The notes below the pieces were generated by a model. The model worked only from the letters and a program-made list of their open reading frames with translations. It was not told where the DNA came from and searched no databases. From positions 16,448,650-16,512,649 of the forward strand of contig NC_134026.1 of assembly GCF_964204645.1 (NCBI RefSeq): DNA of 64,000 bases, given 5' to 3'. A program made the position numbers and the translations under genes. Of this stretch, positions 6,715 to 51,963 are shown piece after piece. Within the stretch, counting starts at the first letter, position 1. Each line of letters opens with the position of its first letter. The stretch is from Tubulanus polymorphus. Its lineage: Eukaryota; Nemertea; Palaeonemertea; Tubulaniformes; Tubulanidae.

Positions 6715-6954
6715 AAAACTGTTAGAATCAGGTGACCGCAAATTCAGTATCATAGATACTGCACCTACATGGCTATCGCTGTGTTTATTTGAAAATAAAT
6801 TTCGCGTTCTTGTTAAATTGATTTTGTTGTCAAGCTGCTGCAATACGCTCGACTTATCAAGGACCATGGGCGCTAGTTTGAAAATTGCTTCAGCTAGGAA
6901 CACTGGTGTCAAACGCATTGAGTGGGACTATTTTGTATTTTTGGCTTGCGTAAA

Positions 6955-25080: not shown

Positions 25081-25613
25081 TTAGGGTTTTCTGTTTCTTC
25101 ACAGAAAACCCTATTGAAATTCGCGTGATTATTATTATTTTTTTTTCCCTTTTCCACATAGTTTTTGTTAAAAGTGTAAAGGCTTCCTTACCTTACCGCT
25201 GTCGCCGATACAATCCGTATGATGTCCTTCAGCTCACTTCAATCTCCAGATACTGCATGGGAATTTTGATAAATCCACGTTATAAAGGCACTGTCGAGCC
25301 GTAAACATCGGAAATTTGGCTCCATTCAATTAGTTGCCATGTTGTGTTTTCTTACCGATATTTCTCTCTTCTTTTCGAGGAAGAGCTATCGAATAATTCC
25401 CTCTCTTCTCCACAATCAATTTCAAAGTCAATTTTATGAATTTATTGCTCAGCGGGTCCGAGTCCAAGAGTTTACGAGTCCGGCGTTCGCGTGTCTGACA
25501 GGCTTACGGGCATTTGTTTGTTACCTCTTTAATATTTTTGATTTCTTGTTATTCCGGTTATTTTATTTAAGTATATTGCTGATCAGTTCATGTAACCAAA
25601 AGCGTCAATAAAC
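25081..25613 (+). repeat. Interspersed repeat family, member 4, left part
   Basis: It begins with the hairpin AGGGTTTTCTGT...ACAGAAAACCCT, then ATT and T runs. From 25,131 it matches member 3 (4,655-5,132) with few changes, up to and including CAATAAAC at 25,606-25,613. It is cut there by the 10-kb transposon, and the rest resumes at 35,700. Confidence 0.85.
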
Positions 25614-25667
25614 GAGATTGGTGCGGTTTCTGACATTTTTCATACTTTACTATCGTTTTTCTGACTA

Positions 25668-25860
25668 TTTCCGGATCGTTCCAGAATAAATTAGAATTGC
25701 TTTTCCAGAAATTTCCGGATCTATCCAGAAAGCTGATCTCGTAACGGCACGGAGGGGGGATGCCGCGGAATTCCGGAAAATCGGAATTATTTTTCCAGAA
25801 ATTTCCGGATCGTTCCAGAATAAATTAGAATTGCTTTTCCAGAAATTTCCGGATCTATCC
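25668..25860. repeat. Left subterminal repeats of the KDZ element
   Basis: A block of about 70 bp with TTTCCGGATC, AGAATAAATTAGAATTGC and TTCCAGAAATTTCCGGA is present twice (about 25,669-25,735 and 25,802-25,868). A GC-rich spacer (GGCACGGAGGGGGGATGCCG) lies between. The same TTCCGGAAA core fills the right end. Confidence 0.8.
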
Positions 25861-25898
25861 AGAAAGCTGACCGTCAACAATATCCGGATATACTTAGG

Positions 25899-28800
25899 AT
25901 GGAGACTATTCACAAAGATATAATTTATGGGACTGTGTCATCCAGAAGAGATGGATTTAAACCAATCGTGCTAATGCCGCCGTTACAGATGTGTTTGTTT
26001 TGCGATCGAAAAATAACTTTGAGAAATGAACCGTCTTTTCCACATGTATTTACGAAAACCGGAGTTCACATAGCGGCTTCGTTTTCTGGAGAATGTAGGC
26101 ATTGTGTGAACAAGAAGCTTTTATATCACCCGCAATATTTCACAATGAATGGAATGAAGGACGAGCGTTATTATTATGAAAATCCAAACGAAACCTATTT
26201 TCTATCAACATCTCAAACCGCGTTTTCAATTGATTATCTTGAACATGTTTCCGTCTCGATAAATCATTTCGGGGCCTCTTTCAAAGCGCTCGCGGACGCC
26301 TACAACGAAGAACACGAAAATGCGAACAAAACAAGACTGCACTGTTCATCGGTCTTTTCGCGTACTCCTACAAGTGATGGTCAAGATGATTCGATAAATT
26401 GGTACCTGAATGAACTCAGACTCGAAGAAGCGTGGTTTTTGTACAGAATAACTAGGGAATCAAAACTGAACTACCCAAACCTGAAGACGCCAATATCAAA
26501 TTTCAAATACTTAAAGAATGGACACATCGATTTAGATGCAATTTGCAAACAAGCGTGGCCGGTGAGTCTTTGAAAATTGTTCCTCAATGTTGACAAGAAA
26601 GATATAGGCTACTGATATCATGCTACATTTCACATTGAGTCCATGTTAACATTACATATACTTATAAGAAACCCACATAACAGAAACGAACTAGGATTCT
26701 AACCATCTAAACCCCAATAAGCTATGGTACTCTCAAGCATAAACACCCACCAAAATAAACCTAACCGTAACTCTCTAAACACTAAACCCTCTAAATTCTC
26801 TCTAAAACCTTATCCCTAAACCCCCATTGAAACCTAACCCGCTAAACACTAAACCCTAACCCCCTAAACCCTAACCCTCTGAACACTAAAACCCGCTAAA
26901 ATCTAACTCTCTAATCCCTGAACACTAAACCCTAGCCCCCTAAGCCCTAGCCCCCTAAACCCTAACCCTCTAATCACTAAACCCTAACCCTAACCCCCTA
27001 ACCCCGTAAACCCTAAACCCTAACCCTCTAAAACCTAACCCCGTAAACCCTAACCCTCTAAACCCTATAAACACTAAACCTCTAAAGACAAAACCCTAAC
27101 CCTCTAATCACTAAAACTTACCCTCTAAACACTAAACCCTAGCCCCCTAAAACCTAACCCTCTAAAAACTAAACCTCTAAACACTAAACCCTAACCCTCT
27201 AATCATTCAACCCTAACCCTCTAAACACTAAATCCTAGCCCCCAAAACCCTAACCCTCTTAAACCTAAACCTCTAAACACTAAACCCTAACCCTCTAAAC
27301 ACTTACCCTCTGAACACTAAACCCTAACCCTCTTAACACTAAACCCTAGCCCCCTAAACCCTAACCCCGTAAACCCTAAACCCTAACCCTCTAAACACTA
27401 AACCCTAACCCTCTAATCACTAAACCCTAACCCTCTAAACACTAAACCCTAGCCCCCTAAACCCTAACCCTCTAAAACCTAAACCTCCAAACACTAAACC
27501 CTAACCCTCTTAACACTAAACCCTAGTCCCCTAAACCTTAGCCCCCTAAACCCTAACCCTCTAAAACCTAAACCCCTAACCCCGTAAACCCTAAACCTCT
27601 AAAACCTAACCCCGTAAACCCTAAACCCTCTAAAACCTAACCCTATAAACACTAAACCCTAACTCTCTAAACACTAAACCCTCTAAATTCTCTCTAAAAC
27701 CTTATCCCTAAACCCCCATTGAAACCTAACCCGCTAAACACTAAACCTCAACCCCCTAAACCCTAACCCTCTGAACACTAAAACCCGCTAAAATCTAACT
27801 TTCTAATCCCTGAACACTAAACCCTAGACCCCTAACCCTAGCCCCCTAAACCCTAACCCTCTAAAACCTAACCCCGTAAACCCTAAACCCAAACCCTCTA
27901 AAACCTAACCCTATAAACACTAAACCCTAACCCTCTAAACACTAAACCCTAACCCTCTAAACACTAAACCCTAGCCCCCTAAACCCTAACCCTCTAAAAC
28001 CTAAACCTCTAAACACTAAACCCTAACCCTCTAAAACCTAAACCTCTAAACACTAAACCCTAACCCTCTAAACACTAACCCTCTGAACACTAACCCTCTT
28101 AACACTAAACCCTAACCCTCTAAACACTAAACCCTAACCCCCTAAACCCTAGCCCCCTAAACCCTAACCCCCTAACCCCGTAAACCCTAAACCCTAAAAA
28201 CCACTGAACCCTAACCCTCTAACTCTCTAAACCCTGAACCCTCTAATTTCTCTCTAACCCTTTGAACACTAAACCCCCTAAACCCTAACCCTCTTAACCC
28301 TAACCCTCTAAACACTAAACCCTAACCCCCTAAACCCTAACCCCTAAACCCCTAAAACCTAAACACTAAACCCCTGAACACTCTAAACCCAAACCCTTTA
28401 AAACCTAAATCTATAAAATTTAACCCTTTAAAAACTAAACCCCTAACCCCGTAAACCCTAACCATATGAAACCTAACGCTCTAAAGCCTAACCCCCAAAC
28501 ACCACTCCTCTAATATAATGGGAAATAAATAGTTCGTTGCTTTGTTTATATAGAATCGCAGACAATAACGCGATTCTTTGCGATCTAATTTTAAAATAAG
28601 CTTAGCAGTCCGGTACTCGTTATATTAAAGGTATTTGAAGAAAAAGAACGAAAGTGGATTAAACATGTGTGCGAAACGAAGGGGTGTAGGGAGGGGTACG
28701 TCACTATCGATGGCAATGAAAAGCTTCATCGGGCAAAGTGTGCAGCGGATAGCCAAGTACATTTTGACGATACAAACTCAATCAGAACAATCATAACATG

Positions 28801-30254
28801 TCAGAATGACCCTTCTTATGGCGGGAAACACAACCCTCGTCAAGGGAGGTGTCAGCTCTGATCACTTCAACTCTTACGATGAATTCTCGATGATAGTTTA
28901 TTTACGGGCGTAGGCTATAACATGCTCGTACATTTAGGTTGCCCTATCATTGAAAACATCAGCAAAACGTATACCTGTTAATTTAAAGTTACTTAATATC
29001 AATAGGTTCTGTAACGAACATAGACCAATGGAAGAGAAAAAGCTGACAGACAAACCCAATAAAGACGACCATACAAAACGACCTGAAAGACAGACGCGGA
29101 TTCCATTATATCTCACAGGTACATGAAAATTAACGCTAGGTTTATACTCATAGGGTCAGCGACAATTCAAGATGTTTTTGATTTATATTTTTAATTACAA
29201 TCTGTTACTATTAAAGAATATATTTAAATGTTTGCATGTATATAAATATAAATTCAAGGTTAATTCAATACAACCTAAGAACATATTTAATATTTCAACC
29301 CTCTAGTAACCCTCTAATGACAATACTAATCCTATGACTTCACTGACCATGTAATGATACTGAACATGTGACACTCTCGAACACAAGAACCCTTTCTTAT
29401 GCTCCAACGCTATTGACAATATAACCCTATTACCTTCCCTGACACAACAACCCTATGATCCTATGACCCTCTCTGACCCTACGTTTAACTATACCCCCAG
29501 TATGGTTATGGTCAATGTCAGGGATTTACTTTAAACAATGATTCTGACCCTGTAAACAGGGTTTTATTTCTTTCGTTGCGATTCATATAGTAACGAAATC
29601 GATATTGTTTACAGATGTATCACGTTACTGTATCACGTTGTTGTACACGATGTTAAACGTGCGCGAAATATGTTACTTGTGGATGAATCCGTCGCTGAAT
29701 TAGGATGCAAAGATAGAGTACAGAAATTGAATAAGTTTTATTCTACTACTGCCGGTATGTTTGCTGCGATAAAACCTTGTGGAATCGTCGTCAGAATGGT
29801 TGAGATGTTTTCGCATGAAAGTATAACACAGGCTTTCCTTTTCTTACATGAAACATATGTGAGAAATGGATATAAAGATTACTTGAGATACGTCGGTTAT
29901 GATCGTTGCTGTGAGTTGCATCCATTTTTGTGCCGACTAGCCAAAGACGGTGTTGTTGAAGCATCCGAATTGTTGGAGAACACCAAGTTTTTGGTGGATA
30001 TTTTCCATGTTGTGAAACACACGAAGCCTACATGCATGCCTCTCGATGGGCCTCAATGTAAATACCATCCTAATTTAGATGCATTTCAAGATATCGCCGG
30101 CACGAATACAGAAAGTTGCGAACAGGGTTTCGTTCGATTGAATCGATACAAAGCGGCAACTAGATACATGACCAGGAATAAAAGGAAATTATTTTTCAAC
30201 TTGATTAATAATGACTTTAACGAGAGACTTGAAAAAAGATTAAAACTTGTATAA
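25899..30254 (+). CDS. KDZ-superfamily transposase with cysteine clusters, spliced
   Basis: Exon 1 is 25,899-26,561 (221 codons, phase 0, donor GTGAGT). It holds LPPL-type N-terminal sequence with CLFC (residues 32-35) and CRHC (66-69), a zinc-binding cluster of the CxC type found with KDZ transposases. Exon 2, 28,631-28,848, carries HVCETKGC, then the motif YVTIDGNEKLHR with the likely first catalytic Asp, and more cysteines. Exon 3, 29,006-29,118, restores the cluster end FCNEH in phase 2, then turns Lys/Arg-rich. The last exon, ending at 30,254, has VGYDRCCEL, FLVDIFHVVKHT and GTNTESCEQ, which hold the remaining acidic candidates. The exon 3-4 junction is uncertain: an acceptor at 29,614 breaks phase, while one at 29,559 keeps it. 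The protein would be about 530 residues. It probably cuts and joins transposon ends; domestication cannot be excluded. Confidence 0.75.
26700..28505. repeat. Telomere-like degenerate array (copy A), in transposase intron 1
   Basis: About 1.8 kb of CCCTAA, CCCTAAA, CCCTCTAA and ACACTAAA words, with CCCTAGCCCC and CCCCGTAAA variants. A block beginning AACTCTCTAAACACTAAACC and running through AATTCTCTCTAAAACC occurs at 26,769 and again at 27,661, a higher-order period of 892 bp. The C-rich strand is the transcribed-sense strand of the transposase gene. Heavy degeneration argues against a functioning chromosome end. Confidence 0.9.
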
Positions 30255-30912
30255 AACATGTGTAAAACGCGCTTCACACCGTATGTTTATTACTTTTCTA
30301 AACTGATAAAGATATTAGTATAAACGAGGAGATTTTTCTAAGCTTTTGGCTACGTATTCCAATGGTCGTTTTATTGAAGCTTAAGACCTGAAATTTGATA
30401 GAAAAATGTTGTATTATACAGAACTAGTAACATGTTATGTTATGTTGTAATCACAGCAATGAGATTTGCTCTTTATAGGTTATTTTAGCTGATGTTTGTC
30501 TCATTTCAGCCCAACATTAATGAAGGAGTTAATACCCGGCATTACTTTTTCCGAATCCTCATAGTTTCTGAAATATTGAACTGTAAACTGTCTAATAGGG
30601 GGGGGGGGGGGGGGGGTTACAAAGCTAATCCCGCTAAAACCAATTTCAAACGTCTTCTCTGGGATTAAAGATGTAGTTGACACGAAAATAGATGTGAATA
30701 TAAACTTAAATCATAGCTCCAATGAAAATATATATATTCCCATTGTAATGTTACGATGTAAATAAGGATATACTTTTGAGATATTTTCAAGAAATGGTAA
30801 GTGGATAAGTAACTTCAGTTTAAATTCTAATGTGTACCGGTAATTATATTCGGATGGGCAAATATATAAACAGATACACTTACTGTTGTTCCAAAGGCAC
30901 TTTTGATGCTGA
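30255..30912. other. Intergenic gap between the convergent transposon genes
   Basis: This is a 658-bp spacer between the stop of the transposase and the stop of the NTPase gene. It contains a G run at about 30,598-30,617, whose length differs from copy B, and no supported gene. It presumably supplies the 3' ends of both transcripts. Confidence 0.6.
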
Positions 30913-33900
30913 CTAGCTGTTAACAAACTCTGATCTTGTCACTTTCAACGAAGTTAACATCTCATCTTCTATGTTTTCAGTTTTGAGAAAACTTATCTGA
31001 AAAGAGATCAATCATAATTGTATATCAATATATATGTACAGAGAGGAATGAAAGGGTCATAAATATTTTAATGGACCCATGTATACAAATATATTGTGTT
31101 TGTATATCACGCGACAAACTGAAAGAATATTTTTTGCCTAGAACTAAGAATTGTTTAAAATGCCTACCTTATCAGTAGCAATGTTTATGGTGCCGGCATT
31201 TCGGTTCTCAAGCATTTGGAATATTTCTTTAATCTTATTCTTCCCCCCATTTACTTTGAATGCCGACTTCTTTTGCATCGCACTCATGAATACCTCTCTC
31301 CCTTGATTTAATATGACAATTTTCATGAGTCGTTGGTTCGTTTCGGTGATACCTTTAGTAAAACAATATTTAGATAATTGTTTGACGTATACGAAATAGT
31401 CGATGCGTGTACAAATGAAAAGCACAAAAACAAAATCTGGATTTTCCCGGAAAACTCAATCTAAAAATCTTATAATCTTTCTATTATGAGACCAAAAATG
31501 AAAAATAGTGGTTTTTCTCGGGAAATGCAAATCTTTATATCCCTCTAGTTATCATATAGGCCTATAGCTCCCATTTTATGTTGCGGTACCGTGGAATTCC
31601 GCGTAAACATAATTATTCTAACATAATTATTTTTATCAAGACATTATATTTGGATGACTGTCGAAATTAATTTTTGCTTTTATTCAAAAGCCGATAAGGC
31701 TAGCCTGTATACCTATATACCTGTACAAATATAACATATTTTACATTATTCTACCGGTTGATAATCTATTAGTGAAAGTTACACTTTTACCATTAATCTA
31801 GTAGTTTAAAAAAACAACAAATACGTGCGTTTTCATAATTGATAATCATTTACCATCGTATGTTTTACAGTCATTTTTAATAATGAAGCTTCAATTTGTA
31901 CAACCTACTACGCTTCTTCAATTACACAAAATCTACTCCGGAATGAAGGCCAGTATACGCCAAACGTGATTTAAGTTCAGGACACTGTTACAGGATCCGA
32001 TTGACCGATTGCCCGGGATAAGCATATTCTCAATAAGGCAAGTTAGTGTCAATAGTTCTATCGATTAGGACGAGGTACCTTTTCTACAGCCAGGGTTTGA
32101 TGTAGCCTACGTCTTAAATTTTTTGACCGTCCATGTGGAGTAGTCCCGAGTGCATCGTCGACATAATGTTACATCACTCAGAAAAGTCCAAGGTGACTTG
32201 TGAGGAACTGTTATTGCGTTTATCTAAGTAACGTATCTTACCATCCGGGATTAAGACTGGCGGCGAATCATTTTCCATTCCCACCACAGTCGCGACATGG
32301 TCAATGCATAGCGAAACAATTTCTACCGAAGCCCTGATCACTTCCGATCTGATTGTGTTCCTCTCGTGATCAAGCTGTTCATCATCACCGTCATAGAAGA
32401 TGTTGAATAGTAGTTGTATCGCTGGGCAAAGACGAAGTACCTGTCCCTTGCCTTTTGAGTAAAGCGCTGTTAATATGAAAGCAATATCAAATTAATTTTT
32501 CTTTAATGATTTTGTGGTAATATGTTAAACCGTAAAGTATGATCAATATTCAAATCGTATAGAACACTTGCTGATTAATTTGCTATGACATTATCATTTG
32601 CAAGTAGGTGAATTTGTTATTTTCTTTGTTTTCAACAGCTGGAAATACCTGAAGACTTGAAAGTACTCCTCGCTACTAAAATATAACTATAATATAATTT
32701 ATTAGATTTAAACTCACCACTTAGCAGGTTGTTGGCCAAACAATTCGATTTCAATTTTTGTTGAAATTTATCATAAATGTCCGAAACTTCGTTATCTGTA
32801 TCTGTGTCTATTCTGTACAAGGTCACATCATTGTCACCGTTGTGCAGTACTTGTTTACTGAATGCCTCGCCTACATTTAGTGAAACATTTATAAATCAAA
32901 AATTTGAAAAATATAGGAGGTACTTTTTAGGACTAGAATAAAAACATATAATGATCTTAATAAAAGACAAATTTTTTACTTTCAATACGTAAAAATACAC
33001 TTCCAAGTAAAGAGTTAATTTAGAATTTTCAAAAAATATAATGAAAACTAATTGAACTATTACAACGATTTAGCAATTCACGATATTCCGCTCCAAAACA
33101 CGTTTTGTGCGATGAGGAACAAGTGACCAACATCAGTCACGAATCAGAACATTAAACTGACCCGTTTCCCGTCTACATAGCAACATTTCATAAAACCGGC
33201 AACTATCTATTTACTTACATAAACGCTCAATGAAGACATCTCCGGTATCATCGTCCGTACACTTTAAATCTTCGAATGTGTTGAATTTCGGCTTAGGAAA
33301 TAACCAAAGAAATCTTGATGTGAGACCTTTGTCAATATTTTGCTTCTCCGTTATTAATGAATATGCCGTACTTGGCTGTGTCATCCCAAATATCGATAGG
33401 CCGGTGGTTTCCATTGTAAAATTAGCTTTTTCACCAACTGTAAAATAGATACCGGCATTATTATCTTTTATGTTGAGCATGTTTATGTTAAAAATGAGAA
33501 TTTCTAACAATACAACCGGTGGGTGTCTATGTTCTTGTTGTTAGTAAATTTTGTATATCAATAGACAAATGGTTACTAGTGGGCTCATGTGTTTTGATTA
33601 TGTTCAATGACTTTAATAGGTGGCAGCTTCCCTGGCCTGGACACTGAGAGGTGACGACTATTGACTTGTTGCCGCGATCTGGACTGGTCCGGACACAAGT
33701 ATGATTTAACTTTTATATGGTTTATCTTATTTATTGAATTGAACCTGCAGTGAATAGGCTTAAATTATTTGGATGAATCCAGAAATGACCTTACCCGTTT
33801 TCCTTGTCCAGGAATTACCGTTATACATTTGTAATATTCTTGAAAATTCGTTTGTTTCTAACAATCCCTTGCTTCCGCTGTATATGTTTATTTGCGTTAA

Positions 33901-35187
33901 GAAATTTGTTAATTCATCTTGTAGGGCAAATGCTTTTCCGTTGTTTTCGGCCATCAAGGCGCCCATTTTTTCAAAACTTTGATCGTCTAATGTCCAGATA
34001 ACAGATTTAACGTCTGGTCTTGACTCTTCCACCTTGTTTTTGATCATTTTTAGTACTTTACTCATCAGCCTATACACTGTTGACTTCCCTGACCCAGTCG
34101 GGGTGCAAACGGCAAGCCAGTTGATAGCCGGTTCTTCCCACATGGTGTTTGAAACTTTGACGATCGCGTTACTACATATATATGATGATATGCCTAATAA
34201 CCCAAAAAGTACTGACGAATCGGGTACGTTCATCTTATCTGCAAGAAATTTACAACCCTGCAACAAAATAAAATAGAATCATTTTTTTAGAATTACTTTT
34301 TGTTATAGGCCTAGGCCTATAATGAAATGAACTTCATAAAATATTATTCTAATACTGTTATACTTTGTTCAGAGGTTATGGCTCAACCGCATTCCTAAAT
34401 TCACGAGAAAAAGGTTAAATATTCATTGACTTGAATATGGAAGAAATGTATTTTTTTATGATTTATACCCTAGAAATTTATTGCTCAATTTCTTGTAAAT
34501 GATATCCTAGCTATTCAATGACAAGGGTTAAATTTTCAAATTCCTGGAGCGGGGTGTTTTTGAGTCATACAGGGCATGGTTTTGAGAAAAATTATAGGTT
34601 ACCAGGGCTGTTAGGAAGTCTACTGACTAAAAAATCTAATCAATAATTAGGCCTAGACCTAGCCTTAGATCTATAGGCCAACCATGTTGACGATATTAAT
34701 GATGACTATTTCCGCGATTTAAATTATTGTTGTTATGAAATAGGCTTAGCCTAACTAGAAAACCGAAGAACAATTTTGTATGAAATAATGGTAATCTCTT
34801 TGACGCGACGGGTACATACTCTGTGTTGGTATCAACAGACAAATAAGAGGCCTCTACAGGGACACATTTACGTCATTTCAAACGGTGAAATGGTTAACGA
34901 CTTCCACTACATATTTATTAAATAGACCTATTCCAACTGCATAATGTAGACAATAGTGCGGCATACATAGCCATTGAGCTATATATCCATACGATGCAAG
35001 GAAATAGCATATGTTATGGAAAAGGTGCATGAATTACGAATTAATTCTGTTGCTAAATGCAGGCCTTAAGTAGCCTATTTGATATGGTTGGCTAAAGTTT
35101 ACTTACCTCTTCCAGCTTCGTTGGGAAAACATTCCAGCGTATTTCTTTCTCCCAACATTTATTTAAATAAGCTAATCTAGATTCCAT
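30913..35187 (-). CDS. DUF3987-like P-loop NTPase, seven exons, intact (copy A)
   Basis: The - strand exons are 35,187-35,107, 34,257-33,795, 33,437-33,219, 32,870-32,718, 32,466-32,242, 31,352-31,168 and 30,996-30,913. All have GT-AG borders and matching phases (0,1,1,1,1,0), giving 1,410 bp or 469 residues from MESRLAY to SEFVNS-stop. The Walker A motif TPTGSGKST is at residues 79-87. A Walker-B-like LQDEL (Asp141, Glu142), SRILQMYNG..WTRKT, GMTQPSTAY (about 200) and GLTSRFLWLFP with a possible arginine finger (Arg223) follow, the order seen in DUF3987 proteins. That family is best known beside primases in bacteria and phages; its chemistry is not settled. Placement inside the transposon and convergent with the transposase suggests an ATP-driven accessory role in transposition or element copying (inference). 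Confidence 0.8.
33573..33581. other. Empty target site for the 2.4-kb element of copy B
   Basis: TTACTAGTG is present once here. In copy B it is duplicated at 54,624-54,632 and 57,009-57,017 around an insertion. The site lies in the second intron of the NTPase gene. Confidence 0.95.
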
Positions 35188-35339
35188 GTTGAAATGATTG
35201 AATGGGATCAGCTTTTTATGTTTGATGATAAAAGTCGTTGTGTTACTACGCAACAAATGACTGTTCCCTAAATAAATTAGTTAATTTCCGTGGTAACGGA
35301 TCAAAATCCTTATAACATTATTCACTGTACACGATTTTT

Positions 35340-35672
35340 GGAATGAGATTTCCGGAAATTTCCAGAAAAATCCGGAATTTATTTTCCGGAATTCCATTTG
35401 ACCCCCCCCCCCCTGCGATAATGAGATTTCTAGAATTTTCCGGAAATTTCTGGAATTATTTGTTTAAATTTTAACACCACGATTTTTGTAATGAGATTTC
35501 CGGAAATTTCCAGAAAAATCCGGAATTTATTTTCCGGAATTCCAAGTGACCCCCCCCCCCCTGCGATAATGAGATTTCTAGAATTTTCCGGAAAATTCTG
35601 GAATTATTTGTTTAAATTGTAAGACCCCTCCTTAGATTTTTCCGGAAATTTCTAAATGATTCCGGAAATTGA
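35340..35672. repeat. Right subterminal repeats of the KDZ element
   Basis: A unit of about 120 bp (ATGAGATTTCCGGAAATTTC, then a C run, then CTGCGATAATGAGATTTC) is repeated twice, followed by further TTCCGGAAATT words. The C-run length differs between copies A and B. It mirrors the left subterminal zone. Confidence 0.8.
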
Positions 35673-35699
35673 GAAAATGTCAGAAACCGCACCATTATG

Positions 35700-36212
35700 C
35701 AATAAACAGACTTTGAATTGATCAAGTTTAAATCAAGGTCGTTGAGTCGCGGAAGGCTACTAGAATTACGTTCGTCTTCGTCTCAGAGAGAAAACAAACG
35801 ACAGAAAAGTATCAGGTGATTATCGATAGCCTACAACGGTACACACAGTTGACAAACAGTGTTAGGCCTGTGCCGGTTGGTGCGTACTGGGACTAAATAT
35901 ACTGGTTGGTCAGTTGGTTCGGTTGTGAAGTGTGGAAGCTAAGATTATAAGAAAGCCTACCGGTATTTATTTGTCTATAGGCCTATTATATAGAAGCCAA
36001 TACCATTTTAAGTACGTAGTTGTTAACCGCACGTGATTGACGGTGATCTCCACAGGTTAACCGCGTATGTGAGGTCCCTACTAAGTATATAATGCCATAT
36101 GAGTGAGTTCCTAGTAGCCAATACCATTTTAAGTACGAAATTGTAACACGTACGTGACTGTACGGTGATATCCACAGGTTAACCGTACGTGAGTTCCCTA
36201 AAAACGCTGTAT
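35700..36212 (+). repeat. Interspersed repeat family, member 4, right part
   Basis: It continues the repeat cut by the transposon and aligns with 5,125-5,490. Its tail contains two tandem copies of a unit of about 97 bp beginning AGCCAATACCATTTTAAGTA (35,994 and 36,116) and ending with CCACAGGTTAACCG and GTGAGTTCCCTA-type words. Confidence 0.8.
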
Positions 36213-36319
36213 GTGAGTTCCTATAATCAGCAAACGCGCATGCGTAAAAGAATAGAGTTTGGGTTAGGTGAGGCTAGGCTATTTGTAAATCAAATTTCAT
36301 CCACCCACCAGTTACGTTC

Positions 36320-36392
36320 TGTGGCACAGTGGGTAAATCACTGGACTACTACTGGATTTTTTTTTCGTTTGGTTTCGAATCCCAATATTGCA
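36320..36392 (+). repeat. tRNA-derived SINE-like sequence (copy A)
   Basis: TGGCACAGTGGGTAAATCAC fits a polymerase III A box (TRGYNNANNGG). GGTTTCGAATCCC about 40 bases later is a B box with one extra T. A T run interrupts the region between them, so no functional tRNA is proposed. Confidence 0.5.
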
Positions 36393-37516
36393 AGTCTGAG
36401 CGTCAACGTACTCACATATGGCTAACCTGTAGAAATCACCGTACAGTCACGTACAGGTAACAACAGCGTTTTAAGTATTAAGTGAGTACGACAAGCCTAC
36501 CATGCCTATGTACCACAAACACAACTTTTTCCCTCTCGTCGGCCCTACAGTGATGTTACTATAACTGGTGCCATTATAATATGGATAGGATTTGGTCAGG
36601 ACTAGCCTAAAGTCTAATTCAGTCTATGTACTAATTCACTCAATAGGCCTATTTTTAAAACAATACAGTGAAATATTCACACGCAGAAAGGCTAATTGAT
36701 TTGAGCCATGTGATTAAGTTTGGCCAGGCCTTCTCTGACCTGCTGACATTAATAGTCAAACCAAACCGTTCATGTGGTCACGGCTTGTATTACCAGAAAT
36801 CATTGTAGGCCTGTACATTTTGCTGTTCGTAAGTTTGGTATACCGATTTCTCCATTCTTGACTGATAAGTGTACGGTACAGCTGTACGCATTATATAATT
36901 GTTCCAATGGGAATAGGGCCTATTGATTGGGCTTATTATTTCCTGCTTTAGAGTACTGAAATAAACCTAATGTTCATTCAAATATCCAACATCGGTGAAA
37001 GTTTGATTAATACTGTATACATGTACTGTAGGTTTTCATGTTGTATGAATATTTTGCAGTTCAAATGGGTATGATGCTGATTCCATTGTCAAACGCATGA
37101 AGTTAGATGGTCAAGGACAGTCAACACCAAGATATCTCTCTTCGACCGATGTTGTACCATAGAAGATCTGATTCTTTCAACTCAAGGAAAGTGATTCAAC
37201 ACGATCGACAACACTGGAATAGGTTTGCAGTAACTAACTGTTCATTTCATTTAGTCCTATGTACTTTTTAGCCAATTTGGATTTGATTGTAATTGAAACT
37301 CTGGAACTGTTAACAAAAGACAAGTAAGACAAGTTGAAAAAACACAAGTTATGCTTGATTCTCATGTTCAAATTTAATTCAAATTTATTTTATTACATCA
37401 TATTTACAAAGCATATCATTGGTTCATACAGTAATAAAAATTAGGGCAGAACAAATATCATTACAGAAACTCCAAAAAGGCAATGAATTTCTATGACTAA
37501 ATGAACATTATTTTTA
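36393..37516. other. Non-coding stretch
   Basis: I see no gene or clear repeat structure. The word TAGGCCTA and its variants are frequent here, as elsewhere in the window. Confidence 0.4.
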
Positions 37517-38066
37517 GCCCACTTGGGACTTTAGTCCCAGCGGGCTATTGCGTTCACTTTTCGTCCGTCGTCCGTCCGTAGACGGAAATCAGTTATTTTA
37601 GGAAGTTCTGAAGACGCTTCAATGTAATGTCTTGATATTTGGGTTACACATGTATCTACCCTAGACACATCTTCAGCTCAAAAACTGGCCCTGTCAGAAT
37701 CAAGATGGCCGACTGGCAGCCATTGTTGTTCGCCAAAATCAACACTTTTTACACATTTTTGAACTTTTTGAGGGAAATTTTGAAGATGCTTTGATCAATT
37801 ACCTTGATCTTTCGGATATATGTGAATGCCCCTGGGCTCATCAGCATAACAAAAATTGGGATACGGACTCAAGATGGCCGTCCTATGACCTTTTTTAGTG
37901 AATTTTGGCCCGAATTCTGAGTTTGCAATTTCTCATTGCAATTTGTGATGGGTATTCTTTGAAAAGGGATGTTTTATACCTTTGATACCTGAATTGTTAG
38001 ATTGTTGAGCATTTGGAACCACTTCCCAAGTGGGCATGGTGTCCCTGGACCCCTAGTTCTAATAAC
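37517..38066 (+). repeat. Interspersed element with terminal hairpin (copy A)
   Basis: It starts with the hairpin AGCCCACTTGGGACTTTAGT-CCCAGCGGGCT, then CGTCCGTCGTCCGTCCG. It ends after CCAAGTGGGCATGGTGTCCC and CCCCTAGTTCT. No coding sequence is present. A 5' hairpin followed by a short microsatellite, with CTAG near the end, recalls non-autonomous Helitron/Helentron elements; the assignment is tentative. Confidence 0.5.
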
Positions 38067-38606
38067 TCAGAACACACGCAACTAGTGGAATAGGTTTGAT
38101 TTACACACATGTTGCAGGTATCAATTGTTTATCACTGTAGAATTTGTAATCCATAAAAGCCAAAATCAACATCAGCCGGAAACCCAGACCAAATCAATTC
38201 ATAATTTATTGATTGAATCTACACTACGATATATGTATTTATTCAAATATTTCAATAAAAACATTAACTTCTTAAATCTAATCTATTCTAAATCATAATA
38301 CGTTCTTATTTGTGAATTCACTCAATCTATCGGCTCAGCAGGTGCTTAAGATGAGTTCTTAATAGGACAGATCCATTTTTAAGGATGGTGATAATACAGT
38401 ATCATGATGTTTGAATGCCAAAATAAGTGCCTGGTCAAATATATTAATATTTGTGATTGTACGTCCACGTATGTTCGGTTTCAAAGCTGAATCATATTTG
38501 ACGTTTACACAGTGGTTGCATATTAGGTTCGAATCTGTCAATGCGTTTTATTCTATGTATCGATATTTCAATTTACTACAATTCCCATCATTCTGAATGG
38601 CTTTAC

Positions 38607-38720
38607 AGAAAACCCGTCATCGCTGCTTTGCAGCTATATTCTTATTTTAAAATTTGTAACTTTATTGGATTTGGGAATCGGACCAATAAAGATTGAATTG
38701 AATTGTCCCCTGATACAAAT
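38607..38720 (+). repeat. Head fragment of the dispersed repeat family
   Basis: AGAAAACCCGTCATCGCTGC-TTTGCAGCTATATT matches the head of the members at 239, 3,131 and 4,619. Downstream sequence is different, which suggests a related subfamily. Confidence 0.5.
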
Positions 38721-39396
38721 GCCATTAGGGGATGCGGAGCCGTATTGGAAAGCTATGCTATTATAGATTGGATAATCGGGATGATCCCATGAAACCTGCA
38801 TACCTCTAATATCGAACACATTTTCTAAAACATTTGAATATTGAAATCACATGTTTACACATTTTTACATTACGATTTTTATCGAATAATCCGATTTACT
38901 TATCATTTCTATTTATGCCTACCGCTTCTGATATAATCATACATCCATTACTATTACAATACGTCTTCTCATGATATTCAATGCAATATAACATTTCGAC
39001 GTTCAAATATGGCTCATTGTATAATCACAGGAAGACATTCTACATCTTTGTCAATACAACTTTGCCAAATAGCTTGTTTGTGTACACATAGACCTGTAAC
39101 GTTTTGCACATCGATTCACGGTTACGTAAAATGACGCTGAATGGTTAACATTGTTAAGGTTTCATAATGGTAACGTTTTATAATAAGGCGTCAAAAAATC
39201 AAGTCCGGGAAGCCTGGTCCCTTCGAAAAGCAGGTGTGAAATAAATCCGAAAATAAAATCTGGCCTGACGGGTGAATATAAATCTTAATTTGAGCTGAAT
39301 TGTACATGAATTGGGAGAAATTCATCGGAGCAACACGCGCACCAATCAACGGAATCCTCGCTCGGTAAAGAAAAGACTTAAAGCGAGGGCACAATG

Positions 39397-39537
39397 CGCG
39401 ATTTCGTCGGGCGATTTTAGTTTATAACAACTATTCAGTCCCCCACCTGACTCCAGTGGGTGCGATGTAGATGTAATGGAGCTTTCCACTAACAAATAAA
39501 GTAAGATATTAAAAAAATTATAGGCCGACGAAATCGC
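39397..39537. repeat. Short inverted-repeat unit
   Basis: GCGATTTCGTCGG at the left and CCGACGAAATCGC at the right face each other about 115 bp apart. The antisense frame of 131 codons across it (39,346-39,741) is therefore probably not a gene. The same arrangement is in copy B at about 62,829-62,970. Confidence 0.45.
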
Positions 39538-40334
39538 ATGTGCGTCAGGTAGGACGGATTGTTCGCCTCGAGCGCCGTATTCAATCGACCAATCACAGCT
39601 TTTCAACGGTTCACGAGGCAGTAGCGCTAGTGAAGTTTCAAGGCTGTTGATGTTCACGGTGATTGAATTGAACTGATTGATTTGAACATGATGCTGTTGA
39701 GTCCATACACGGGCCCTGGTTTCCCGTTTAAAGCATTTCATTTTAGAAAAAAACTTTGGTTTGCCATGTATGTTGGAGCTTCGTTCTCACGCTTGGAGGC
39801 GCGGAAGGAGTTGAGTGTTAGGTTATTTTCGAGTCGAACCATTTTACCTCGTACATGTACATATATTTGCATGAAATAGAAATACAGTTAAACGAGGGGG
39901 AATGCCCATCCTGTCTCCGTGACTAAATTCACTTATAGTTTTTTCTTGTTATTTGGTACCGGTGACAATATATCATTTGAAAACATTAATATGCAGTCAG
40001 TAAGCCATAACTCGAGTCTTTCCCTGCCATTTTATATCTATATTTGAAAATTTCAATCTTTTTTTATTCAAAAAAGTTGCAAAAATTTGTTTTTGATAAC
40101 GATAAAATCCTGCCTGCCGGGTGCAGAGTTTCCACAAATCTGTATTTTCTTAATAAATAAGAAAACATCTGCCTGCTCGGTCACTTTGGTGGGTAGAGAA
40201 GGTGGAGAAACAAGGCATCATTGTTGTTTAGCCTCAGTTACAGTGTACAATCTTATAGCTTTTTTAGGTGCATCACAGTCATGATGGGAATCAGCAGCCA
40301 ATCTTAAATTCACCAGAACTCCAATCATTGGAAT

Positions 40335-40673
40335 TCATGATTTCTGCTTCGCCCGTCTAGACCATAATTTGAAGATATATCTTGCTTTCAATTCCATGTT
40401 TGATGATATTTCTTCAGCGAATTCGTAGGCTGCTTTGTAATTTGAAAATTCCATAATACGGGATTGATGTGTCGCAATCAGAATCTGCATCGTTTCTGTT
40501 TTCAGAAACTGCGCTACGGTCTGTGAACGTGAAGCTGCATCAGTAGGATTCATCGCACCTGGGCAGAATAGCCATTGGTCCGATGAGGAATGATCGCGTA
40601 TTGTAGTGATTTTATTTGCTACAAATGTCTTGAAACGCTTATCCTCGTTCTTAATGTATTTCAGTACTGACAT
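40335..40673 (-). pseudogene. BEL/Pao retrotransposon pol fragment
   Basis: The 112-residue frame reads SVLKYIKNEDKRFKTFVANK and later WLFCPGAMNPTDAASRS. This matches the RNase H to integrase linker of BEL/Pao polyproteins (there typically RF.TFV.NR and PG..NPAD..SRG). No other pol domain is attached, so it is a truncated remnant. The partner in copy B is cut by the window end. Confidence 0.7.
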
Positions 40674-43824: not shown

Positions 43825-43932
43825 CTTAAAATATTCATATATATGAATAAAATATAAATGAATAACTTCTAAAATCAATTTTAATTAAAAAAATTAGTAT
43901 TAAAATGGAAGCAAATAGGTGATTCCTGCACT

Positions 43933-43968
43933 GACACTGACGAAGGCAACCTCGCCGAAATATCTGTC
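43933..43968 (+). ncRNA. Small hammerhead ribozyme-like motif
   Basis: The order is GACA, CTGACGA (43,937-43,943), GGC-AACCTC-GCC stem, GAAA (43,957-43,960), TATC, TGTC. GACA pairs with TGTC as stem I and GGC with GCC as stem II, while stem III is nearly absent. This matches the compact hammerhead variants reported in Penelope-like elements. The motif ends just before the ORF1 ATG at 43,970. Confidence 0.6.
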
Positions 43969-43969
43969 A

Positions 43970-45472
43970 ATGGAGCGATCTACTCGAAAGAAGAAACGAC
44001 CACCAGCTGAGAAGACCAGCAAGGGCGGAGGACGCCCTGAGCGACACCAGCAACCCGGGATGTCGCCGAAAAATTACTATAGAGCTCTTCAAGTGGCGCA
44101 CCACCTTGCCCAGTTGAGCTCTGGTCCGAAAGCGATTCGGAGGAAGAAGGACCATCTGAAGATGTTCCTGCGGCCGGCGGCTTGCACCGAAGCAGTAACG
44201 GTGCAGCTGCACGCTACCGCGGACGTCTGGATGGAGACAGTTTCGAAAGAGCTGACCATCCATTACGCTGCCACATTTGTTCAGCTAATGGGTGATCCTC
44301 TGCCGGACTGTCTATCAGCACAGGATGTCGCCCTGACATGGGCCCGGAGGAATTTCGGCTCCCGTCTGAGCCCCGGAACGATCCGGCTTTTCAACATCGC
44401 GCTGGATTTGCGGTCGAAATTCCGCGGTCAGGCTCTGTCTGACAAACTCAGAAATGTCCTATCTAACCCACCTTCTTCCCCTTCTCATTTCAGGTCACAC
44501 CACCAGGAGGCACCCACGGAACCGAAGATTCGTCCGCCGCCGAGACCGAGCCGGAAGATTCGAAAGCCCGCGACGCCGAGGACGCCTGCACCAACCGCAG
44601 CCGCGCCCGCCGCGCCCACAGCGCCTCCTTCTTTTTCTGATTCCAGGTCACCGAGAAGCTACGCGGATGTCACCAGGACGCCACCAACCAGAATGGCGCC
44701 ACCACCGAGAAGTCCGATGCCGACGCCGCCACCAAGTAGTCCGACGCCACCGCCTCGAAACCCGACGCCGCCGCCTCGAAACCCGACGCCGCCGCCGCAG
44801 AGAACGCCGACCGCACCAACCAGCAGTCCGACGCCGTCTCTCTCTTCTTCTCTTTCCAGCTCTCCGTCTCATTACAGGTCACCAGGGCGCCTACTGCCAG
44901 CGCGAAGTCCGACGCCAACACCGAGACCGATGGCGCCCCAGGAAGTTCGCCGTCATCCGAATACGGGTCGGAAGAAACAGGATTGGAGTCTGCCACCAAC
45001 CCGGCGACCCATTCTGGTGATTGGTGACTCAAATCTGAGTAACATCACATCAAGCCGCCGTCCGGATGACGTCCAGATCGAGAGCTTCCCCGGCTGCAAG
45101 ATAGCTCATCTCGCCGACCTGATCGATGCTGTACCGGAGCGCCGAGATCGCCCGGATACGGTGATCATCAGCGTCGGAATCAACAACCGCGACAACAACT
45201 TCGAAGCGACCGCCAGGAAGACCACACAGCGCCTGATCAACGCCGCAGTCAAGAAGTATCAGCACTCGTTCGTCCACTTCGTTCAACTCAACACGACCCG
45301 CGAACACCAGCAGTTCGCCCGGAAGTTCAACGAATTCCTCGAGAATAACGACGACGTCACCGCGATACCACCCATCGATAATCGACGCTTCAGAGTTGTT
45401 GGAGACGGGATCCACTGGAACCGTGGTACAGCTAACACCCTGCTGGACCACTGGCTCAGTGGTTTAAACTAA
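43970..45472 (+). CDS. Penelope-like element ORF1, SGNH-hydrolase-like protein
   Basis: Starting from the first ATG in frame gives 500 residues. The N-terminal 130 residues are basic and then helical (MERSTRKKKRPP...). The middle (about 180-350) is Pro/Ser/Arg-rich with repeats of NPTPPP type. The C-terminus carries SGNH/GDSL signatures: GDSN (Gly352-Asn355, nucleophile Ser354), SVGINN with Asn405/406 in the block III position, and DGIHW with Asp479 and His482. Esterase-like domains are known in ORF1 of CR1-type LINEs; in a Penelope-like element I regard this as notable. The stop lies 155 bases before the start of the open ORF2 frame. Several in-frame acceptor-like sites interrupt the Pro-rich part. 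Confidence 0.8.
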   Translation: MERSTRKKKRPPAEKTSKGGGRPERHQQPGMSPKNYYRALQVAHHLAQLSSGPKAIRRKKDHLKMFLRPAACTEAVTVQLHATADVWMETVSKELTIHYAATFVQLMGDPLPDCLSAQDVALTWARRNFGSRLSPGTIRLFNIALDLRSKFRGQALSDKLRNVLSNPPSSPSHFRSHHQEAPTEPKIRPPPRPSRKIRKPATPRTPAPTAAAPAAPTAPPSFSDSRSPRSYADVTRTPPTRMAPPPRSPMPTPPPSSPTPPPRNPTPPPRNPTPPPQRTPTAPTSSPTPSLSSSLSSSPSHYRSPGRLLPARSPTPTPRPMAPQEVRRHPNTGRKKQDWSLPPTRRPILVIGDSNLSNITSSRRPDDVQIESFPGCKIAHLADLIDAVPERRDRPDTVIISVGINNRDNNFEATARKTTQRLINAAVKKYQHSFVHFVQLNTTREHQQFARKFNEFLENNDDVTAIPPIDNRRFRVVGDGIHWNRGTANTLLDHWLSGLN

Positions 45473-45557
45473 GTATTAGTGAGACCAACGGGTCCACTAT
45501 TGGTGAGTTAAATCAACCGGAATTAACCAATGCTTCTCTGATTTCATCCATTTCCAG
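44470..45557 (+). promoter_or_regulatory. Series of splice-acceptor-like sites in ORF1 and the inter-ORF gap
   Basis: Pyrimidine tract plus YAG occurs at 44,493, 44,646, 44,859, 44,877 and 45,557. All but the one at 44,859 are followed directly by GTC. The last is preceded by a donor-like GTGAGT at about 45,504. Penelope-like elements are known to keep introns, so some may be used; ORF2 is open right from 45,558. Confidence 0.45.
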
Positions 45558-47928
45558 GTCCGACGAACACGAAGAACCGGCACCAAACCAAGCGCGACGC
45601 GATCCGGTCACCGCTCTCGGGAGCCCGGTGGTCAACCTCACACGTTCACTCCGCCTAAGTCCGGCGCAACATCAGCTACTCCGAAAGGGCCTCACTTATT
45701 GCCCGACTCCAAAAATCGGTTCTGATGCCGCCGCGACCGAGCGCACCAAGGGAGTGTGCCGATTCAACCGGCTAGTGAAACTCGACCATCACTTCCGAGA
45801 CAAACCGGACCGCGAGGCTCCGCGTTTCCGTCTGCCCAGCAGTTGGGCTCCGGATGAAATAGAACCAGTAATCGCCGGGTTCTGCAACGACGCGCACGAA
45901 TTGGCTCAACAAACCAGGGATACGCGTCGCGTAAATGATAACCTCACTAAACAGGAACGCGAAGCCCTCCAGCAGCTGCGTGACAACACTAATATTGTCA
46001 TCAAAGCCGCCGATAAGGGTTCCGCTACGGTTATCATGGACCGCGACGACTACGTCCACGAAGCCATGCGCCAACTAGCCGATCTCGAGTATTATCAGCC
46101 GCTGCAGCAACCGATCTTCGAACAGACCGGGGAAGAAATTCGCGAAATCATCGAAAATATGGCTCGACGAAAAATCATCCCGCTAAAAACCGCCGAATAT
46201 CTATTACCGCCCGATAATCCGAAACAGAGGCAGTTCTATCTGCTTCCCAAAATCCATAAAGAACGCGAGAAGTGGACGGTACCCGATCGCGTACCGCCGG
46301 GGAGACCGATCGTCTCCGACTGCGGCTCCGAAACCTACGAAATTTCGGAATGGATCGACTACTATTTGCAGCCGATCGCCCGCGGTCACCCGTCGTACGT
46401 GAAAGATACCAACCACTTTCTAGATATTTTGGCCGGTAAACAATTTAGCGCCGATGCGTTACTCGTCACCATGGACATCGATTCGCTCTACACCAACATC
46501 CCCCACGAAGAGGGTATCGCCAGCATCCGACAAGCTCTCCGAGATAACCCAAACCCGGGACGCCCGGATGCCGAGCTGCTGAAACTACTCGAAATCAGCC
46601 TGAAGAAAAATGACTTTAACTTTAACGAAAACACATATTTACAGGTAAAAGGTACCGCAATGGGTAAGCGTTTTGCTCCTTCTTATGCCAATATCTTTGT
46701 AGCCGAATGGGAAAAAGAAGGTCTGTCCAGAAGCGAACTCCAACCATCGCTATACGCTCGGTTCATCGACGACATCTTCATAGTTTGGGAACACGGCCGC
46801 GAAACGTTGATGCAATTCATCGACGTCCTACAAACAGTGAGCCGATCCATCAAACTCAAGTTCGAAATCAGCGACACCAGCGTCAACTTCCTGGACGTAA
46901 CCACTTTCAAAGGCCCGCGATTCGAGACAAGTGGCACAGTAGACACCAAAGTCTACTTCAAACCAACCGATTCGCATCAATTACTACATCGATCCTCGTT
47001 TCACCCTAAACACACATTTTCCGGTATAGTTAAAAGTCAAATTCTCCGGTTCCGGCGCATCTGCAATAACGATTCGGACTTACACGCAGCGTCCGGAACC
47101 GTCCTTAAAGTACTCAGAGGTCGTGGCTACAAAGACCGCGAACTGCGACACATCAAAAGCCAAGCTCTACGGCACCACGCCGAACGAGATCTACGAGAAC
47201 AACAACGGGCCGACGAACCGCCGAAAAAGCGTTTACCGCTTATCTTACCTCACTCCGAAGCCAACCGAACCCTAGCCCGTAACATCCGAACCAGATTTAC
47301 GGAACTGGCTACGGCCACCGGCCGGTCTGACGAGGTAACCACGGTCACCGCCTACACCAAGCACAAGAGTCTCAAAGATCTCCTAACTTCGTCGCAGCTC
47401 AAACCCACGGAGCCACCCCCTCCCCGAGTCCCCTCTTCACCGCATCGTAACAGAAATACTTCCGTTGTTTCCAATTCTTCTATTTCCAGGTCTACTCAAA
47501 GAACTCCGTCAACCCGACGTCGAGGCACCGAGAAATGCAGAACACCGAGATGTCGTACGTGTCCACTCGTCCGAGAAACAACCGTTTGCCGCAGCCACAA
47601 CAAAATGCACGCGATCCGCAGCACAATTAATTGCGCGACCCGTGAAATTGTATACTGCATCGAATGCACCAAGTGCAACATGCTGTACGTCGGCCAAACC
47701 GGAATGTCTCTACGAGAACGCGTCACTCATCACGTCTCACGCATCAGAACGAAGAATTCGACTCCAGTCTCGGACCACTTCAACCAAGTCGACCACACCC
47801 GCGAACACTTTCGGGTGTACGGTCTCCAACACCTACCAGGCTCCACGAGACCGATCCGCGAAGCAGCCGAACAAGACTGGATACGACGACTCGACACGAA
47901 CACGCCCCGAGGCATGAACGTCCCGTAG
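45558..47928 (+). CDS. Penelope-like element ORF2: reverse transcriptase plus GIY-YIG endonuclease
   Basis: The frame is open from the acceptor-like site at 45,557; the first in-frame GTG is at 45,628 and no early ATG exists, so it is probably reached by splicing or unusual initiation. Numbered from 45,628: motif A TMDIDSLYTNIP (Asp283, Asp285), motif B GTAMGKRFAPSYANIF, catalytic FIDD (Asp381, Asp382), then INFLDVTT-like NFLDVTTF. The C-terminus has Cys/His pairs (CRTPRCRTC, CRSH) and a GIY-YIG endonuclease: IVYCIECTKC, LYVGQTG (687-692), Arg696 and HH at 701-702. The protein copies its RNA at a nick made by the endonuclease. All key residues are present and the frame has no break, so the element could be active. 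Confidence 0.88.
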
Positions 47929-48029
47929 ACCGCCTCACTACAACAATTAACTCTCACTACTTTTTTACAGGGATAACCCGCTGCCCGTGCACTAGTGGGG
48001 TCTCCAAACCTTCGGTTTGGTCCCCTAAC

Positions 48030-49560
48030 CTCTATCTCTAAACCTAACCCCCTAACCCCGTAAACCCTAAACCCTAACCCTCTAAAACCTAACCCTGTAA
48101 ACCCTAACCCTCTAAACCCTATAAACACTAAACCTCTAAAGACAAAACCCTAACCCTCTAATCACTAAAACTTACCCTCTAAACACTAAACCCTAGCCCC
48201 CTAAAACCTAACCCTCTAAAAACTAAACCTCTAAACACTAAACCCTAACCCTCTAATCATTCAACCCTAACCCTCTAAACACTAAATCCTAGCCCCCAAA
48301 ACCCTAACCCTCTTAAACCTAAACCTCTAAACACTAAACCCTAACCCTCTAAACACTTACCCTCTGAACACTAAACCCTAACCCTCTTAACACTAAACCC
48401 TAGCCCCCTAAACCCTAACCCCGTAAACCCTAAACCCTAACCCTCTAAACACTAAACCCTAACCCTCTAATCACTAAACCCTAACCCTCTAAACACTAAA
48501 CCCTAGCCCCCTAAACCCTAACCCTCTAAAACCTAAACCTCCAAACACTAAACCCTAACCCTCTTAACACTAAACCCTAGTCCCCTAAACCTTAGCCCCC
48601 TAAACCCTAACCCTCTAAAACCTAAACCCCTAACCCCGTAAACCCTAAACCTCTAAAACCTAACCCCGTAAACCCTAAACCCTCTAAAACCTAACCCTAT
48701 AAACACTAAACCCTAACTCTCTAAACACTAAACCCTCTAAATTCTCTCTAAAACCTTATCCCTAAACCCCCATTGAAACCTAACCCGCTAAACACTAAAC
48801 CTCAACCCCCTAAACCCTAACCCTCTGAACACTAAAACCCGCTAAAATCTAACTTTCTAATCCCTGAACACTAAACCCTAGACCCCTAACCCTAGCCCCC
48901 TAAACCCTAACCCTCTAAAACCTAACCCCGTAAACCCTAAACCCAAACCCTCTAAAACCTAACCCTATAAACACTAAACCCTAACCCTCTAAACACTAAA
49001 CCCTAACCCTCTAAACACTAAACCCTAGCCCCCTAAACCCTAACCCTCTAAAACCTAAACCTCTAAACACTAAACCCTAACCCTCTAAAACCTAAACCTC
49101 TAAACACTAAACCCTAACCCTCTAAACACTAACCCTCTGAACACTAACCCTCTTAACACTAAACCCTAACCCTCTAAACACTAAACCCTAACCCCCTAAA
49201 CCCTAGCCCCCTAAACCCTAACCCCCTAACCCCGTAAACCCTAAACCCTAAAAACCACTGAACCCTAACCCTCTAACTCTCTAAACCCTGAACCCTCTAA
49301 TTTCTCTCTAACCCTTTGAACACTAAACCCCCTAAACCCTAACCCTCTTAACCCTAACCCTCTAAACACTAAACCCTAACCCCCTAAACCCTAACCCCTA
49401 AACCCCTAAAACCTAAACACTAAACCCCTGAACACTCTAAACCCAAACCCTTTAAAACCTAAATCTATAAAATTTAACCCTTTAAAAACTAAACCCCTAA
49501 CCCCGTAAACCCTAACCATATGAAACCTAACGCTCTAAAGCCTAACCCCCAAACACCACT
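48030..49560. repeat. Telomere-like degenerate array (copy B)
   Basis: It matches 26,989-28,505 of copy A with few changes, including the block at 27,661 (here 48,715). The left 290 bp of the copy A array is absent. About a dozen bases at the junction (TCTATCTCTAAACC) belong to neither side with certainty. Confidence 0.9.
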
Positions 49561-49684
49561 CCTCTAATATAATGGGAAATAAATAGTTCGTTGCTTTGTT
49601 TATATAGAATCGCAGACAATAACGCGATTCTTTGCGATCTAATTTTAAAATAAGCTTAGCAGTCCGGTACTCGTTATATTAAAG

Positions 49685-51308: not shown

Positions 51309-51963
51309 AACATGTGTAAAACGCGCTTCACACCGTATGTTTATTACTTTTCTAAACTGATAAAGATATTAGTATAAACGAGGAGATTTTTCTAAGCTTT
51401 TGGCTACGTATTCCAATGGTCGTTTTATTGAAGCTTAAGACCTGAAATTTGATAGAAAAATGTTGTATTATACAGAACTAGTAACATGTTATGTTATGTT
51501 GTAATCACAGCAATGAGATTTGCTCTTTATAGGTTATTTTAGCTGATGTTTGTCTCATTTCAGCCCAACATTAATGAAGGAGTTAATACCCGGCATTACT
51601 TTTTCCGAATCCTCATAGTTTCTGAAATATTGAACTGTAAACTGTCTAATAGGGGGGGGGGGGGGGGTTACAAAGCTAATCCCGCTAAAACCAATTTCAA
51701 ACGTCTTCTCTGGGATTAAAGATGTAGTTGACACGAAAATAGATGTGAATATAAACTTAAATCATAGCTCCAATGAAAATATATATATTCCCATTGTAAT
51801 GTTACGATGTAAATAAGGATATACTTTTGAGATATTTTCAAGAAATGGTAAGTGGATAAGTAACTTCAGTTTAAATTCTAATGTGTACCGGTAATTATAT
51901 TCGGATGGGCAAATATATAAACAGATACACTTACTGTTGTTCCAAAGGCACTTTTGATGCTGA

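Follow-up and report, generated by a model that had tools for sequence, protein, structure and literature searches.

This study concerns a 10,086-bp element at 25614–35699 of a 64,000-nucleotide stretch of the Tubulanus polymorphus genome (contig NC_134026.1; the whole stretch is called the window). The locus raises two questions: is the element a complete transposon, and why are the same transposon ends separated by ~161 kb at two loci of the assembly (the giants), with a virus-like segment between them? The first question has a direct answer. The element is confirmed as a complete KDZ-type DNA transposon of the cut-and-paste kind, and its ends were placed exactly to the base by direct reading of the window. 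As to the second, a KDZ transposon bearing a telomere-like array, with a virus having entered each copy separately, is the explanation of the whole that we consider probable.

Ends and spread of the transposon

The element is flanked on both sides by the 8-bp target-site duplication CAATAAAC (25606–25613 and 35700–35707), as the original prediction had it. The left terminus (25614–25640, plus strand) consists of the hexamer GAGATT and the inverted repeat GGTGCGGTTTCTGACATTTT, and the right terminus (35674–35699, minus strand) reads inward as CATAAT followed by GGTGCGGTTTCTGACATTTT. The inverted arms, which had been put at 20 bp, span 21 bases (25619–25639 and 35674–35694) and are 100% complementary. 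The outermost hexamers do differ between the ends, a feature that had been called odd. The idea that they are donor-site sequence was ruled out, as the same hexamers occur across different flanks. Since GAGATT and CATAAT are kept in different surroundings, they belong to the element, which ends six bases outside the inverted repeat. Departures from these hexamers are CACATT at the giant on contig C2, CATAAC on C1, and CATTAT on C10 (6.21 Mb).

An uninterrupted relative of the insertion site, also pointed out earlier, lies at 5125–5132, where a single CAATAAAC stands without an insert. Alignment to the flanks of the transposon gave a 96.9% match on the left side (4659–5137 vs 25140–25619) and a 90.5% match on the right (5125–5487 vs 35700–36084). 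By its sequence, the empty site is a paralogous copy of the flank and not an allele.

The subterminal arrays were recovered by motif scanning and by reading of the repeats. On the left (25656–25876), TTCC[AG]GAA recurs at a spacing of 134 bp, and several other copies have more units; on the right (35330–35670), TTCCGGAA is arrayed in a 148-bp repeat. Plus-strand counts of TTCC[AG]GAA are six in 25614–25898 (285 bases) and ten in 35330–35699 (370 bases), with none in 26559–35329 and one in 1–25605. Single-base shuffles gave means of 0.03 for the left end, 0 for the right end, 0.23 for the interior, and 0.77 for 1–25605. Because the GG form is palindromic, most of the minus-strand sites (counts of 1 and 10) coincide with those of the plus strand.

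The genome (267.8 Mb, 77 contigs) was searched with each transposon end. At least 36 pieces matched the left end and at least 29 the right; internal repeat units make up many of these. The boundaries are common to copies in unrelated flanks. Both ends were examined in nine copies, and their flanks were compared for 8-bp duplications. The duplication is perfect (8/8) in five copies on five contigs: the window (CAATAAAC), C6 at 11.43 Mb (AATAGTGT), C1 (AGATTGGT), C10 (AAAAATAG), and C8 (ATACATAC). A sixth, the giant on C3, matches at 7/8 positions, and one copy has no match. At C6 9.89 Mb, the right end is worn and has lost its hexamer, leaving the duplication unscoreable. The last, at C3 25.16 Mb, also shows 8/8, but its flanks are those of the C8 copy, so it is not independent. 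The right arms of five copies are about equally distant from one another (0.44–0.59%, excepting a local duplicate in the window), which suggests a recent spread of the family. The result is a KDZ family with ends fixed to the base and an empty site.

Transposase and DUF3987 genes

The transposon encodes a CxC5+KDZ transposase and, convergent with it on the opposite strand, a DUF3987 P-loop gene, in keeping with the prediction of a transposase and an NTPase gene that face each other. The CxC5 (PF18718; E = 1.6e-11, 44.9 bits vs a cut-off of 26.9) and KDZ (PF18758; E = 2.2e-11, 44.3 bits vs 26.6, positions 70–214 of 217) matches are both clear of their thresholds. Three plus-strand exons can be proposed for the transposase. 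Exon 1 (25899–26561) holds the CxC5 cysteine cluster and is followed, in frame, by GTGAGT at 26562, a putative splice donor. Exon 2 (28631–28858) covers the TIDGNEKLHR region and has a 3′ end that varies between copies. Exon 3 (29556–30254, start approximate) holds the KDZ domain. In a compact relative on C4, which has no array, the three exons fit into 2 kb (4953–6882 of a 10-kb stretch); they are 45.5%, 45.8%, and 57.9% identical to exons 1, 2, and 3, respectively. This relative supports exon 2 and places the array region of the window element in intron 1.

The second gene (31147–35280, minus strand) is a multi-exon member of the DUF3987 family, as judged from open frames and domain matches. 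Its P-loop exon (33763–34278, minus strand, motif CTPTGSGKST) scores above the cut-off (E = 3.3e-11). The next matching exon (33214–33540, minus strand) falls just under it (E = 1.3e-5, 25 bits vs 27), and the remaining exons are guesses from open frames. The P-loop exon gave nothing below E 0.03 in the PDB and no match in plasmids. It has five matches in the genome, and 5/5 lie within this KDZ family, to which the NTPase is thus tied. The 10 kb read around the C4 relative held no convincing DUF3987 exon (a single chance-level match, E = 0.14). As neither the array nor a convincing DUF3987 exon was seen in that stretch, the pairing marks this family and not every KDZ gene of the genome. Among the papers listed in the open-access literature (PubMed Central), we found no earlier report of a KDZ transposase–DUF3987 pairing.

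Gene content was also compared among further copies, as had been proposed. Transposase exon 3 and the P-loop exon recur jointly in the C10 copy and the C3 giant. At the C2 giant the P-loop exon is broken by a deletion and a stop, and shorter copies lack one or both of the two exons, as judged by their absence from the genome match lists.

A virus-like segment within the telomere-like array

Between exons 1 and 2, in the predicted intron 1, repeat analysis identified a degenerate, CCCTAA-rich, telomere-like array of ~1.7 kb (26755–28500) with periods of 15, 22, and 37. CCCTAA occurs 68 times in the 1,801 bases of 26700–28500, and TTAGGG not once; in 200 single-base shuffles, CCCTAA averaged 3.2 occurrences and never exceeded 8. 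A 33-base word from the array has 13 exact matches in the genome, a count that is silent on more diverged arrays, and 13/13 are inside copies of this KDZ family; the reversed control has 0. Short copies of the family carry the array without a virus.

The giants occupy C3 16020292–16180914 and C2 18032044–18193017 (reverse). One side consists of the left arm (end, exon 1, and array); the other consists of array, exons 2 and 3, the DUF3987 gene, and the end. The virus-like segment, with long unbroken frames in the pieces read, lies between the two array stretches in both giants. At C2, it spans 18039202–18189485 (150,284 bp) and its ends form a 23/24 inverted repeat (score 43, vs a maximum of 28 in 300 shuffles). 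There, the virus abuts CCCTAA-type repeats on both sides, with CCCTAACCCCCTAACCC just before its left end and CCCTAAACCCTAGCCCCC of the array just after its right end. At C3, the same left end comes after AAACCTAACCCTAACCC, which stands at the tail of a Penelope-like fragment, and on the right side a longer copy of the same Penelope-like element precedes the array. The left side at C3 repeats array and exon 2 (4981–5584 of the piece read) with a base private to C3 among six aligned rows, so the C3 insertion involved a local duplication. In the assembly, there is good support for the nested structure, in which a segment resembling a large DNA virus is located at a telomere-like repeat within a transposon.

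The coding content of the segment is virus-like. A 2,229-aa open frame matches DNA_pol_B with the same score at C2 and C3, and the C3 piece has an exonuclease domain; the nearest PDB sequence is DNA polymerase delta (E = 3.4e-9). Another frame, of 515 aa, is a tyrosine recombinase whose N-terminus bears a C2H2-like finger, recognized by eye and through a weak match to zf-DBF. A RING frame and a bZIP frame score above the Pfam cut-off and a BIR match lies below its own. A 780-aa frame is 100% identical in the two giants. For placing the virus, searches of Pfam, NCBIfam, PDB sequences, IMG/VR, and a phage collection gave only the polymerase, recombinase, RING, and bZIP. Divergent relatives (23–29% protein identity) are found on C23 (136,000 bases) and C30, and a 192-base stretch matches both contigs at 81%. 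C23 itself starts with a frame (93–623 of the piece read) matching a Cas12f1-like TNB domain above cut-off, and C8 has a further family-B DNA polymerase match (4618822–4619268) in a 992-aa open frame.

The two giants can be compared part by part. Over three sampled overlaps, the virus copies differ at 11/17,559 aligned positions, or at 21/17,926 with an adjoining 367-bp edge piece (10 differences). This divergence of 0.06–0.12% compares with 0.44% (30/6,796) for the right arms of the transposon (Fisher p = 2e-9, or 4e-6 with the edge piece), with gaps uncounted and sites taken as independent. The lower divergence of the virus, together with the different left joins, favors two virus entries into two older transposon copies. 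Thus the virus probably entered two pre-existing transposons separately, as far as such comparisons can tell.

Order and orientation are alike at both loci, and the 7/8 target duplication at C3 extends across 161 kb. These features could also be read to mean that the 161-kb composite is itself the mobile unit: fused once, it would have reached C2 and C3 as copies made by the KDZ transposase. Teratorn, a piggyBac–herpesvirus fusion, sets a precedent (PMC10175614). We nevertheless regard this as unlikely: the right arms are ~4–7 times more diverged than the sampled virus, the local sequence at the left virus join is not the same at C2 and C3, C2 is without a duplication, and the one at C3 is equally expected from a virus entering an already inserted transposon. 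Considerably less credible is the converse scheme, in which a giant gave rise to the 10-kb element by deletion, KDZ and DUF3987 are virus-end genes, and array–array recombination removed the rest. The array does stand on both sides of the virus in the giants, so such recombination would yield a 10-kb copy. At C2, however, the virus is bounded within the array by inverted ends of its own, and in short copies the array is free of virus. Moreover, the five right arms are about equally distant (the local duplicate aside), and the KDZ and DUF3987 exons have no match on C23 or C30, although the relatives there are only 23–29% alike and the contigs may be partial. We attach equally little probability to an assembly artefact, by which virus contigs were misjoined at telomere-like repeats. 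It would account for joins within repeats and for virus-like relatives on small contigs (C23 and C30), but two loci on two large contigs are involved, their left joins differ, and the arms keep the expected order and orientation, with the 7/8 duplication at C3.

Several observations weigh against separate virus entry into a mobile KDZ element as we have described it. The eight bases beyond the ends of the C2 giant do not match, and no duplication is present there. The inverted virus ends come from C2, the locus where both ends of the virus were read. When the subterminal arrays are removed from the arms (16/5,205), the divergence contrast is weaker (p = 5e-5, rising to 0.005 if the edge piece is included); gene conversion may have played a part in it, and the counting assumptions given above bear on it too. 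Beyond approximately C3 16139350, the virus copies cease to match in the pieces read. The rightmost 2.3 kb of the virus at C2 have only short matches in C3, which leaves an inversion unsupported as the cause of the differing right halves. From a C3 frame of 1,703 aa, a piece of 1,335 aa has no long C2 match where only the best candidates were scored. Each virus copy therefore seems, from these alignments, to lack sequence present in the other. The viral assignment has its own weak points: four of the 47 chosen giant frames (polymerase, recombinase, RING, and bZIP) exceed the Pfam cut-off, models of the naldavirus envelope core genes PIF2 and p74 gave no match (with no working positive control), IMG/VR held no relative in searches that reach close relatives (one with a two-row profile), and the phage collection held no relative of the segment. 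Finally, the exon joins of the transposase are predicted ones. Exon 2 of the window copy has a one-base gap relative to C2, C3, and C10 and is without their donor-like GT; because of this, the window copy may be unable to make a full transposase.

In separate virus entry, the reading we prefer, the TTCCRGAA arrays near the ends would be the binding sites of the spliced CxC5+KDZ transposase. Its cuts would fall at GAGATT/CATAAT, six bases beyond the inverted repeat, and the transposon would insert with an 8-bp stagger. The convergent DUF3987 NTPase would travel with the element in an accessory role. Intron 1 of the transposase would have turned into a telomere-like array. A large double-stranded DNA virus could then have entered the array of each copy, either through the action of its zinc-finger tyrosine recombinase or through homology between repeats, in a manner resembling the entry of endogenous nimaviruses into telomere repeats.

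Known systems and neighboring elements

KDZ elements with target-site duplications of this kind are known: 8 bp in Zisupton and Dileera and 7 bp in Kyakuja (PMC12730594). Zisupton genes are multi-exonic (PMC9297572). The element described here shares with Zisupton/KDZ a multi-exon gene, a KDZ transposase that bears a CxC cluster, inverted repeats, and 8-bp duplications. It differs from the KDZ elements in the excerpted parts of those two papers by its non-matching outer hexamers, TTCCRGAA arrays, DUF3987 gene, and telomere-like array between exons 1 and 2.

The giants recall Teratorn of fish, ~180 kb in size, in combining a DNA virus and a cut-and-paste transposon (PMC10175614). The transposase superfamily is a different one, and the virus probably is too. 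Furthermore, the virus is inside a repeat of the transposon, with its own inverted ends at C2, and the association is known from assembly structure and not from joint movement. Among the matches listed in PubMed Central, no KDZ–virus composite was evident by title or start of abstract.

A nimavirus-like lineage is a candidate placement for the virus. Endogenous nimaviruses enter telomere repeats, and their tyrosine recombinases typically have C2H2 fingers, although some use an acquired Ginger2-like transposase (PMC10871703). The segment is like crustacean nimaviruses in its integration at telomere-type repeats, its tyrosine recombinase with a C2H2 finger, and its very long polymerase (2,229 aa, compared with 2,455 aa for the wsv514-like polymerase of Nimav-1_LVa; PMC7016691). 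It is unlike them in that the CCCTAA-like target is inside a transposon and in its size (150 kb vs 278–401 kb in majaniviruses). In core genes, the likeness is limited to the length and family of the polymerase. A literature search for nimaviruses outside arthropods gave none relevant by title among the best 15 of 1,224, which is a weak negative.

A further proposal, which we advance tentatively and hold to be possible but doubtful, is that the telomere mimic in the transposase intron acts as a decoy. It would be a preferred landing site of telomere-targeting parasites (the nimavirus-like virus and the Penelope-like element), giving a 161-kb nested composite whose KDZ ends could move the virus. 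If true, this would be a route to transposon–virus fusion that does not require a transposon to jump into a virus. The origin of fusions such as Teratorn is called unclear in passages of a review (PMC10175614). If an array within a transposon drew in telomere-specific integrators, it would offer a concrete first step toward them that can be tested.

The Penelope-like element of the window lies at 43919–48037. It has two open reading frames (ORFs), 43919–45472 and 45436–47928, the latter with an RVT_1 match above cut-off and a GIY-YIG match just below it. Penelope-like elements can be tied to telomeres. Reverse transcriptase, GIY-YIG, and a 3′ end adjoining CCTAACCC repeats are all features that this element shares with them; it is unlike them in that the repeats are the array inside KDZ copies. 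Its 3′ end adjoins the telomere-like array of a second KDZ copy in the window. A 98% copy with the same join is on the right side of the C3 giant, and contact with the array is thus seen in two copies.

That second KDZ copy (48038–59130, plus strand) has no left end and carries the same CAATAAAC at its right end; it comes from a local duplication of 26984–40567. Both this copy and the telomere-like array (26.7–28.5 kb) were overlooked by the original prediction, whose view of the locus holds for the boundaries and genes; the giants, being elsewhere in the genome, were beyond its view. The duplicated stretches (26984–40567 and 48038–64000) are 99.8–99.9% identical apart from a 2.4-kb insert, and the left edge of the duplication lies within the telomere-like array. 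The insert (54632–57008) is flanked by an 8-bp duplication, TTACTAGT, and the corresponding empty site is present in the first copy at 33573–33580. It has long inverted ends starting (G)CGGTTCCTGAAC, which resemble the KDZ core GCGGTTTCTGAC, and on this likeness it is perhaps a member of a related non-autonomous family.

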